Shown here piece after piece: positions 43,800 to 47,302 of a DNA stretch of 64,000 nt. The position numbers were made by a program, and so were the translations under genes. Source of the DNA: a virus; the IMG/VR virus record IMGVR_UViG_3300025870_000004, positions 1 to 64,000 of that record, one strand, 5' to 3'. Below the pieces are notes generated by a model. The model was not told where the DNA came from and searched no databases. It saw only the letters and a list, made by a program, of their open reading frames with translations. The number at the start of each line of letters is the position of its first letter. Positions within the stretch are counted from its first letter, which is position 1.

Positions 43800-43807
43800 T
43801 ATAAATA
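43800..43807 (+). promoter_or_regulatory. T4-type late promoter, rightward
   Basis: Exact TATAAATA on the plus strand, 18 bases before the ATG at 43826, with AAGGAG in between. Confidence 0.8.
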
Positions 43808-43825: not shown

Positions 43826-44095
43826 ATGTCTGACGAACTATTTGATTTTGGGTTTACCCTAGTAGATGAGAATGAACTGGAAGCAGTCCAGACTGCCACC
43901 GCACAGGTCGCATCGGTGTCCTCTAACGTGGAAGAGACCCAAGAGAAACTCAATAAACTCTATAATGCAATCCAACCGTTGTTGAACAACCTGAAGTTGA
44001 ATCCTGAAAAGGAATACATCCTATGGCCTAATCGCACGGAGAAGATTGAACAGTTCGAAGACCATATTCAATCAATCTATCAAGGCGATAAGTAA
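43826..44095 (+). CDS. Small conserved T4-like phage protein
   Basis: 89 aa. MSDELFDFGFTLVDENELEA opens an acidic region; then a coiled-coil segment (NVEETQEKLNKLYNAIQPLL) and LNPEKEYILWPNR. I recognise this arrangement from marine T4-like phages, where it is of unknown function; a late promoter directly upstream suggests a role in virion assembly. Its stop touches the next ATG. Confidence 0.65.
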   Translation: MSDELFDFGFTLVDENELEAVQTATAQVASVSSNVEETQEKLNKLYNAIQPLLNNLKLNPEKEYILWPNRTEKIEQFEDHIQSIYQGDK

Positions 44096-44904
44096 TGTTT
44101 CTTTATAGAACACAACCGAAATCAACTAGTGAATATAACATCATTAATCTGAAAAGAAAACAAGAAATGATGCATGAACTTCTGATAGCATCGCGTTATA
44201 AATCAAATCATCGTCAGAGAAAAAGAAATGATTTTATAACTTTGTTAACTGATGGGTGTTTGTTAGATGGTATGTTGACACTTGCTGGTTATGACAATAT
44301 TCTTGTTGTCACATCGTTTGAGGACAGGAACTATGACCGATTGAGAGATAGAACTCAGAGACCAGTCAATAGTGCAGGCGACCATATGTTCCCTATTGTC
44401 AATAGTATGAACGGTTCTCATGGTAACATATATGCTACCTCAGTGCCTAATGGTGATAGTTTCTTTACTCACCTATATGGCCACTATAACATCAACATGG
44501 TTGATTGTGACAGTTATTTCAAAGTCGATAATGATTTCAAATTGAGAAATGTGAGTGTGAAGTTTGACGCTGTGGTTTTGTTGGGATGTGAGTCGATAAA
44601 GAAAGGTAATTTCCGTGCAAGTGATGTGAAGGCAAAGTTTGCGAAATACTGTATAGAAGACTTTGATATGATTGATGTGTATCGTGGTGACCGCAGAAAA
44701 CTTACAGGTGGAACAAAGTCTATCACTGACACGAAGAAAAAAATGATTGAATGTGTCAACACTCCAATACGAGTTTATGATGAGAAAACTAGACTCAATG
44801 TAACAAAAGATGATGCAAATTGGCAGAGAACAAGACCGTGGTTACAATACATGAGATTGGCAATGAATATTGAGTCGCTGCAAAACTACTACAAGGTTTA
44901 TTAA
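44095..44904 (+). CDS. Unknown protein, paralogue 1 of a pair
   Basis: 269 aa. The central region shares a pattern with the next gene: YDNILVVTSFEDRNYDRL, GDHMFPIVNSM, NIYATSVPNGDSFFTHLY and a FDAVVLLGCES segment. The latter, a hydrophobic strand followed by acidic residues, looks like a Rossmann-type strand, but no catalytic motif is clear. Basic N-terminus (YKSNHRQRKRND). No membrane segment. It belongs to a late operon that ends with the kinase gene. Function unknown. Confidence 0.6.
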   Translation: MFLYRTQPKSTSEYNIINLKRKQEMMHELLIASRYKSNHRQRKRNDFITLLTDGCLLDGMLTLAGYDNILVVTSFEDRNYDRLRDRTQRPVNSAGDHMFPIVNSMNGSHGNIYATSVPNGDSFFTHLYGHYNINMVDCDSYFKVDNDFKLRNVSVKFDAVVLLGCESIKKGNFRASDVKAKFAKYCIEDFDMIDVYRGDRRKLTGGTKSITDTKKKMIECVNTPIRVYDEKTRLNVTKDDANWQRTRPWLQYMRLAMNIESLQNYYKVY

Positions 44905-44906
44905 TT

Positions 44907-45761
44907 ATGATGATTTGTAAAACATCAAATGACAATATATTCAATTCTTTATTTGTGTCTGAAAGACTACAGACTGAGTTCCACTCTGAATTATCAAGCC
45001 ACTTGAACGACTACTTGACAACAGTTGATTCCGATAACAATATGAATTCAATGTCAAATGAATGGACAGAATATTGGAAGACATTACTCATCTCTGCCAA
45101 TATAAGAAATACTTTAATGGTTTATAAAAAGTATCAAAATATTCTTATAGTCCCTACTTTTAGGGATGATAAACACGAATCAATTTTAACAACGGACAAC
45201 ACGGTAGTTCCCAATATTGCTTCACATCTATATCCAATCATTAACAAAAAGTATGATACTAGAACAAACCTTCACGTTGCATTTCCTACAGGACACAATA
45301 GTTTTATAAAGTTTCTCATGGAAGAATATGATGTAGATATCATTGAGTCTAACAAAAACTTTACTTTTGGTGATAATGATTATAGTATTACAACTGATAT
45401 GAATGGTGTTGAGTTTGATGCTGTTCTTCTGTTAGGTGTCGATGAACCAGAATCACCTGTGGATATCAGTGAAGTGAAAAATATTTTCCAATCTTTATGT
45501 GTAGAAAACTTTGATGTTATAGATGATTTCGTTAGACAATCTGTAACGGCGTCTTTCTATAATCCAGATATTGATAATAATGATGTGAACTATCATTATG
45601 ATGATAGAGTAGTTGGAGACACAGAAGATTTGTCGGACATCTCTTCGTTTTTGGGAACTGCGTATGCGACATTTGACGAAAAAGACTATGATGACAAATC
45701 TCGTCAATTATCTAAATACATGATAGATGTTATATCGAAAGGATATCGAATCTATGCTTAG
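44907..45761 (+). CDS. Unknown protein, paralogue 2 of a pair
   Basis: 284 aa. It parallels the preceding gene: YQNILIVPTFRDDKHESI, ASHLYPIINKK, LHVAFPTGHNSFIKFLMEEY and EFDAVLLLGVDEPE. It lacks the basic N-terminus and is Asp/Asn-rich at the C-terminus (NPDIDNNDVNYHYDD). Its last bases overlap the start of the kinase gene. A duplicated pair with one copy more acidic suggests they form a heterodimer or have split roles; this is inference. Confidence 0.6.
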   Translation: MMICKTSNDNIFNSLFVSERLQTEFHSELSSHLNDYLTTVDSDNNMNSMSNEWTEYWKTLLISANIRNTLMVYKKYQNILIVPTFRDDKHESILTTDNTVVPNIASHLYPIINKKYDTRTNLHVAFPTGHNSFIKFLMEEYDVDIIESNKNFTFGDNDYSITTDMNGVEFDAVLLLGVDEPESPVDISEVKNIFQSLCVENFDVIDDFVRQSVTASFYNPDIDNNDVNYHYDDRVVGDTEDLSDISSFLGTAYATFDEKDYDDKSRQLSKYMIDVISKGYRIYA

Positions 45762-46443
45762 TTTTAATCAATTCCAATATATCGAAGAGGGTGTTAACGA
45801 CCCTACAATCTTCAAGGCAGTATTCCTTGCGGGCGGGCCTGGGTCTGGTAAATCGTTTATCGTAGGTAAGACTGGTCTTCCTGTTCTTGGATTCAGAGTC
45901 GTCAACTCTGATGATGCATTCGAGAATGCAATGAAGAAGGCTGGTAAAGCGATGACTCCTGACGAAATCTTCTCCGACGAAGGTCAAGATATTCGTGTTA
46001 GAGCAAAGGCGTTGACTGGTAAGAAACAAGACCTATACATGAAGGGTCGCCTTGGTTTAGTTATTGACGGAACTGGTAAAGATTTTGCAAAGGTGAGAAA
46101 ACAAGCCAAGGTTCTTCAAGACTTGGGTTATGACACTGCAATGATTTTTGTCAACACCGACCTTGATACTGCAATCGAAAGAGATAAGTTGCGTGACCGT
46201 TCAGTTGGTGAAAAAGAAGTTACCCAGATGTGGAAAGATGTTCAAAAGAACATTGGTGCTTTCCAACAGATGTTCGGTAAGGAAGATATGCTCGTAGTTG
46301 ATAATTCAACTGGTAAAGACTTCAAGAAAGAAACGCTCCGTGCATATCGTGATGTTCAGAAGTTTATCAAACGTGAACCCGATAATCCACTCGCCAAGAA
46401 GTGGATTAAACAAGAGAAAAAGAAGCGCGGTATTACTCGTTAA
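45754..46443 (+). CDS. P-loop kinase with possible capsid-targeting peptide
   Basis: 229 aa from ATG at 45754 (overlapping the upstream stop). Walker A GGPGSGKSF follows MLSFNQFQYIEEG and FKAVFLA. A Walker-B-like LVIDGTG and a LRDRS Arg lid support a small-molecule or polynucleotide kinase of the zeta/AAA_33 type. The first 13 residues resemble T4 internal-protein targeting peptides (IPIII begins MKTYQEFIAE), and I-E-E-G fits the gp21 protease site (L/I-x-E followed by G/A). It may thus be packaged in the capsid; this is inference. Confidence 0.7.
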   Translation: MLSFNQFQYIEEGVNDPTIFKAVFLAGGPGSGKSFIVGKTGLPVLGFRVVNSDDAFENAMKKAGKAMTPDEIFSDEGQDIRVRAKALTGKKQDLYMKGRLGLVIDGTGKDFAKVRKQAKVLQDLGYDTAMIFVNTDLDTAIERDKLRDRSVGEKEVTQMWKDVQKNIGAFQQMFGKEDMLVVDNSTGKDFKKETLRAYRDVQKFIKREPDNPLAKKWIKQEKKKRGITR

Positions 46444-47225: not shown

Positions 47226-47302
47226 TGGTGAACGCACAGGGACTTGAACCCCGAACCTACAGCTTAGAAGGCTGTTGCTCTATCCAGTTGAGCTATGCGT
47301 CC
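47226..47302 (-). tRNA. tRNA-Arg (anticodon TCT)
   Basis: A full cloverleaf can be drawn: acceptor GGACGCA/TGCGTTC, D stem GCTC/GAGC, anticodon stem ACAGC/GCTGT with loop CTTCTAA (anticodon TCT, reads AGA), T arm CGGGG-TTCAAGT-CCCTG. The 3' CCA is encoded (ends ACCA). AGA is common in this phage, so it likely supplements host tRNA. Confidence 0.9.

Follow-up and report, generated by a model that had tools for sequence, protein, structure and literature searches.

A capsid-targeting-like leader on a P-loop kinase and on unrelated candidate cargo enzymes of T4-like marine myoviruses

The protein encoded at the end of a presumed late operon (Table 1) belongs to the AAA_33/zeta/polynucleotide-kinase group of P-loop kinases. 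It is probably a cargo enzyme packaged in the head of a T4-like, Kyanoviridae-related marine myovirus, with an N-terminal leader working as a capsid-targeting sequence (CTS). We infer packaging, cutting and injection of this kinase; the leader, its conservation, its recurrence and its link to the virion proteomes of other phages were computed. According to the proposed mechanism, the kinase would be made late, the leader aromatics F4 and F7 would bind the prohead core, and a gp21-family prohead protease would cut the hydrophobic-x-E/G site after E12, leaving within the head a free kinase starting at Gly13 that would be ejected into the host together with the DNA. The kinase would be one of a leader-sharing cargo set that includes cytidylyltransferase/NMNAT-like, DUF5824, DUF6267 and other proteins, and in some relatives several members of this set are fused, with CTS-like and cleavage-like segments at the domain borders. 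The initial annotation's idea of a packaged and injected kinase, which might act on the host at once, was favoured on every point open to computation.

The window, a stretch of 64,000 nucleotides, comes from a virus record of 92,686 bases (G000). By kinase protein the closest named phages are Methylophilales phage Melnitz (48%) and Pelagibacter phage HTVC008M (43%), both classed under Kyanoviridae, and Agrobacterium phage Atu_ph07 (39%). A single tRNA-Arg(TCT) gene at 47226-47302 on the minus strand is the sole DNA between 30000 and 50000 that closely matches named phages. The translated kinase frame opens with MLSFNQFQYIEEGVNDP, and the N-terminal stretch of the 229-residue protein is MLSFNQFQYIEEG. 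The longest version of the frame begins at 45727, a start that was rejected for want of support from relatives; the ATG at 45754 is the better start because the nearest relatives (L004, L007) contain 0 start codons between the upstream stop and the ATG, and because AAAGGA precedes it by 10 nt.

Table 1. Positions in the window of the kinase gene, its parts and the presumed late operon.
Feature	Position	Strand	Remarks
T4-type late promoter consensus TATAAATA	43800..43807	+	18 nt before ORF 43826
ORF 1 of presumed late operon, 89 aa	43826..44095	+	No PHROG match
ORF 2 of presumed operon, 269 aa	44095..44904	+	No PHROG match; paralogue of ORF 3
ORF 3 of presumed operon, 284 aa	44907..45761	+	8-nt overlap with kinase start; no PHROG match
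Shine-Dalgarno-like AAAGGA	45738..45743	+	10 nt ahead of ATG 45754
Kinase ORF	45754-46443	+	229 aa plus stop; start ATG 45754
Capsid-targeting-like leader MLSFNQFQYIEE, residues 1-12	45754..45789	+	F4, F7, I10-E-E12; proposed gp21 cut E12/G13
Kinase domain, proposed mature protein G13-R229	45790..46440	+	Pfam, AlphaFold, VIA-align
Walker A GGPGSGKS, residues 27-34	45832..45855	+	G27-K33 invariant in alignment

The rules for capsid targeting in T4 are taken from the available text of a review (PMC9026906), according to which internal-protein propeptides are 10-19 residues long, the first 10 residues of IPIII are enough for targeting, and residues 4 and 7 serve targeting whereas residues 8 and 10 serve processing. 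In the T4 record IPII and IPIII both start MKTYQEFIAE followed by A after the cut, exactly the peptide with which the initial annotation had compared the kinase N-terminus. IPI has F4 and F7, as in the window leader, with ITE/A further along, and gp23 carries FLTE/A at residue 65, which the available review text (PMC9026906) gives as the gp23 propeptide length. The window leader is a 12-residue propeptide with aromatics at positions 4 and 7 and a hydrophobic-x-E processing site, I10-E-E12, followed by G13; like IPI, IPII and IPIII, as far as the review text extends, it combines aromatics at 4 and 7 with [IL]xE at the cut and a length within 10-19. The spacing to its cut site is two residues longer than in the IPIII 10-mer and shorter than in IPI. 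Because I10-x-E12 lies two residues later than in the T4 10-mer, the leader falls outside a strict, T4-derived rule for ORF starts (M..[FY]..[FY][ILMV].E, or all of it one residue later). The likeness to a T4 CTS put forward in the initial annotation therefore stands as regards F4, F7 and the conserved site, but not as regards the strict 10-residue spacing, and its reading of I-E-E-G as a gp21-type site agrees with the retention of hydrophobic-x-E/G across the kinase family. A gp21-family (S77) prohead protease is present in seven of 10 related records, the other three of the 10 being shorter ones of 88-103 kb; the 92.7-kb fragment G000 contains 0.

Conservation among kinase relatives centers on the proposed cut. 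E12 and G13 are invariant in 22/22 aligned relatives, F4 is present in at least 90% of the 22, and the DPxIFKA block behind the site is likewise conserved in this alignment. A wider set of 176 loci was reduced to 169 by a P-loop regular expression and to 61 non-redundant sequences at 85%; the seven of 176 that failed the expression were left out of the main count and inspected separately afterwards. The hydrophobic-x-E/G site lies at the border in 61/61 non-redundant kinases and in 7/7 of the divergent loci that failed the expression (68 in total). The residue two before E in the 61 rows is L (32), I (22), V (3), M (2) or F (2), and the residue between it and E is of 13 kinds. The pattern F..[FYHLW] occurs in the leader of 49 of 54 single-domain non-redundant rows. 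Leader length differs among relatives while the site end is constant (MLKFKQFLSE/G, MLKFSNFIQQLDE/G, MLKFKQYINEQAELDLINE/G), and most kinase relatives, of which the first of these three is an example, have the exact T4 10-mer spacing. The HTVC008M kinase begins MIPFILKEG, without an aromatic at 7. Judged at the sequence level, by family conservation and by recurrence on unrelated proteins, the leader pattern exceeds chance.

This recurrence was measured with the strict rule, which gave 16 matches in seven marine records (G000, 2; G001, 2; G002, 2; G003, 5; Melnitz, 4; HTVC008M, 0; S-SM1, 1) compared with a summed expectation of about 0.9, the expectation of about 0.1-0.2 per record being derived from internal positions. 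One of the four Melnitz matches, clamp-loader-like, is probably false. The control region of T4 (60-109 kb) gave two matches, IPII and IPIII, against 0.07 expected, and S-CREM2 gave three; there were 0 in lambda, 0 in P-SSP7 and 0 in the S-SM1 DNA remaining after a first scan that covered 150 of 174 kb. The unrelated proteins that bear the leader include cytidylyltransferases, DUF5824 and DUF6267 proteins, a RimK-like ATP-grasp enzyme and others. In the phage to which the window belongs, the leader is found on the cytidylyltransferase and the DUF5824 protein, and in a weaker form on the DUF6267 protein. Among DUF6267 proteins, F4 and E10 are invariant in 18 aligned sequences and the leader stands at the start codon in 61 of 80 loci; the DUF6267-like protein of S-SM1 is without the motif.

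The identification of DUF6267 as a ligase, based on a K-x-D-G seen by eye, was unsupported: confidence in the structural model is low (66.6), Foldseek gave no match under E 0.001, the best VIA match has Z 7.1, and comparison with PDB sequences gave nothing of note. The claim of a packaged RNA-repair set was abandoned along with it. The RimK-like ATP-grasp enzyme of Melnitz (L126:82-1128, E 3.2e-33) has the N-terminus MTQKFSQFITE/E and could possibly, from its sequence, be a head-packaged ligase that modifies a ribosomal protein.

The kinase is the last of four ORFs that follow one another head to tail between 43826 and 46443, the second and third of which (44095-44904 and 44907-45761, plus strand) are tandem paralogues with 27% identity over 161 columns (E 2e-18). 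Sites of the TATAAATA type occur nine times in the window compared with 2.17 expected from shuffles; eight lie upstream of an ORF start, seven of them within 5-35 nt, and the frequency of HTAAATA is not above chance. In relatives, for example L036 and L061, such a site lies immediately ahead of the kinase gene itself. The promoter consensus supports late expression of the kinase, and the assignment to a late operon made earlier holds as a reading of this consensus, given the site 18 nt before the run and the excess of such sites. The consensus would also suit a kinase that the leader brings to the prohead core but that works in building the head or on the ends of the packaged DNA, and not as an effector directed at the host; the Melnitz kinase gene has genes for baseplate, tail tube and head completion nearby. 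In HTVC008M, however, the kinase gene is located elsewhere, and the co-cargo consists of metabolic or modifying enzymes, as with the injected T4 Alt (PMC9026906, in its available text), so that a role confined to the head is considered unlikely. Gene order was rejected as a clue to function, since that of Melnitz differs from that of HTVC008M.

The designation of the ORF as a kinase in the initial annotation is borne out by Pfam matches above cut-off and by fold comparison. Pfam assigns AAA_33 (3.9e-8, 34.1 bits, cut-off 27) and Zeta_toxin (PF06414; 4.2e-8, 33.3 bits, curated cut-off 22.3). The AlphaFold model has a mean pLDDT of 82.5; residues 1-11 have pLDDT under 50 and are predicted to be disordered, and the fold begins right after them, behind the proposed cut. 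By VIA-align the nearest structure is O-phosphoseryl-tRNA kinase (Z 15.7, 173 aligned, rmsd 3.2), followed by polynucleotide kinase (Z 14.2, 163 aligned, rmsd 3.2) and zeta (Z 12.7, 176 aligned, rmsd 3.9). The window kinase has the fold and Walker A in common with this group, although identity in the structural alignments is low, at 16-19%. A defence-protein library gave nothing beyond a weak match to GajA (E 0.0064); no NCBIfam profile came close to its cut-off, and the cytidylyltransferase gave a trace of NadR (E 0.022). Fold, a weak guide here, makes a hydroxyl of RNA or nucleotide type the most likely substrate. The Zeta_toxin match would also fit an injected toxin kinase of the zeta type that weakens the cell wall by acting on one of its sugar precursors, and a survey of polyvalent proteins describes, in its available text (PMC5512222), fusions of zeta-like kinases to phage MuF domains. 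This identification is doubtful nevertheless, since AAA_33 scores equally and zeta ranks third by Z, although the gap is small.

Published virion proteomes bear on the wider proposal that the leader marks packaged proteins. For S-CREM2, the accessible part of PMC10665884 (Table 3) lists 52 virion proteins. The strict rule, fixed before this list was seen, matches 3/52 virion-detected coding sequences and 0/167 others (p=0.013), and the three are a SAM hydrolase, an APH-like kinase and a cytidylyltransferase. A relaxed rule, written after some S-CREM2 N-termini had been read, matches 7/52 and 3/167, respectively (p=0.002), although the numbers are small and chance probably accounts for the baseplate protein among the seven. 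Most virion proteins are without a CTS, as expected for structural ones. The sole strict match in the whole S-SM1 genome is the cytidylyltransferase GC190 (MKKFSAFLNE/A), which, in the available text of PMC3037559, was detected in purified S-SM1 virions, whereas its orthologue was not detected in those of S-PM2. The kinase of S-CRM01, described as virion-detected in the accessible text of PMC10665884, has the N-terminus MISFDQFLSE/K. The motif is missing from the S-N03 and MA01 orthologues of the kinase detected in S-CREM2 virions, and the S-B68 orthologue has a weak form only. The S-CREM2 authors proposed packaging and cautioned, in the same portion of their text, that such enzymes may be contaminants surviving purification. 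Within these partly accessible sources, the identification of leader-bearing proteins as virion proteins is supported in cyanophages with published virion proteomes. Among the virion proteins of S-CREM2 is gp12 (L564:7704-10313), which is annotated as Cas9-like and has RFASFMAE/A near residues 18-25; its start may be misannotated, the CTS-like stretch lying behind an unusual N-terminal extension.

The least probable alternative is that the kinase is unpackaged and its leader a structural or regulatory N-terminal element resembling a T4 CTS by convergence or low complexity: conservation of DPxIFKA after the site means that E-G could serve the fold, and the HTVC008M kinase retains E-G without a full CTS, but we regard this as highly unlikely because unrelated proteins carry the same leader, the leader is predicted to be disordered, its length varies while the hydrophobic-x-E/G end stays constant, and the strict-rule proteins of S-CREM2 and S-SM1 are virion proteins in the published lists as far as these were available.

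Packaging of the kinase as a cargo enzyme is also considered in the light of fused relatives. In L076 and similar loci one ORF comprises the leader, a cytidylyltransferase, a kinase with 'IKEG/VNDP' and DUF5824, whereas in the phage of the window the cytidylyltransferase, kinase and DUF5824 protein are encoded by separate genes. Further domains are present in one ORF in L357 (1269 codons), L362 (1166) and others. ORFs with at least two cargo signatures number 59, of which 26 are non-redundant, and the longest that bears a kinase has 1313 codons (L395). PHROG families hold more fusions, of cytidylyltransferase with DUF5824 and of DUF6267 with cytidylyltransferase. The motif F/Y..[FYMH][ILMV].E occurs 10 times in the linkers of the 26 non-redundant fusions and is absent from their cores; after shuffling, the linkers contain a mean of 0.93, and 0/1000 shuffles reach 10. 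The domain borders are rough because cores are fixed windows around hand-made signatures, and with counting restricted to cut-out linker segments the number is nine instead of 10. Eight of the 10 linker matches lie at true-looking domain borders (for example SFEAYLEE/A, AFETFISE/E and AFESYLKE/G), and two were judged not to be junctions, one being an N-terminal leader (L293) and the other lying inside an extra domain (L369). The looser motif [ILMV].E[GASEN] occurs 120 times in linkers, but also 23 times in cores. On balance these observations tip us slightly toward a general arrangement in T4-like marine phages, in which a cassette of CTS and gp21 site would stand before unrelated enzymes or between polyprotein domains, and the prohead protease would free host-directed enzymes inside the head ahead of injection.

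The extra domain of L369 (L369:1759-4323) is situated between cytidylyltransferase and kinase. In Atu_ph07 a protein of 778 aa (L003:5272-7608) has the kinase in mid-protein behind EVTE/G, with LTE/LFD and LNE/LFD preceding two later repeats; judging from these motifs, this jumbo phage may carry it as a cargo polyprotein. An ADP-ribosyltransferase domain suspected by eye in this fusion was not found by Pfam.

Each element is already known, as documented in the available portions of the papers cited here: capsid-targeting sequences, enzymes that are injected, cytidylyltransferases in virions and injected proteins of several domains. The link of a CTS to the marine enzyme set and to cargo polyproteins appears to be new. 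In the open-licence library searched, no description was found of a CTS in marine T4-like phages or of a leader marking shared cargo and recurring between polyprotein domains; the accessible accounts of the cyanophage virion enzymes mention no targeting peptide, and the words 'targeting' and 'N-terminal' occur 0 times in PMC10665884. Unlike the T4 internal proteins, the proposed cargo of the window is enzymatic, has a conserved fold, comes from a set common to marine relatives and is preceded by a 12-residue leader, and in some of those relatives the cargo forms polyproteins. The ADP-ribosyltransferase Alt of T4, described in the available text of PMC9026906 as head-packaged, cut by gp21 and injected, is the model for such an enzyme, but it differs in enzyme class and in its propeptide of seven residues. 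The virion cytidylyltransferases or kinases of S-SM1, S-CREM2 and S-CRM01, insofar as their sources were accessible, are from Kyanoviridae and share the leader with the window kinase, although the virion kinases of cyanophages are APH/protein-kinase-like and belong to another family. Polyvalent proteins, in the available text of PMC5512222, resemble the fused relatives in that unlike enzyme domains, a zeta-like kinase domain among them, are joined in a single chain believed to pass into the host along with the DNA; their release is ascribed there to embedded peptidase domains, whereas the marine fusions have CTS-like and gp21-like sites between domains. The word 'cyanophage' is absent from that text. 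The window kinase itself is single-domain by Pfam and lacks the several unlike domains that characterize polyvalent proteins.

The leader would explain the entry of the cytidylyltransferases and kinases whose presence in cyanophage virions, in the available accounts, was unexplained and open to worry about contamination, and it would allow the cargo that abundant marine phages inject to be read from sequence. If the modular cargo system is true, virion cargo would be predictable from sequence across Kyanoviridae, and in the polyprotein form the prohead protease would have a new use, freeing several enzymes from a single packaged precursor.
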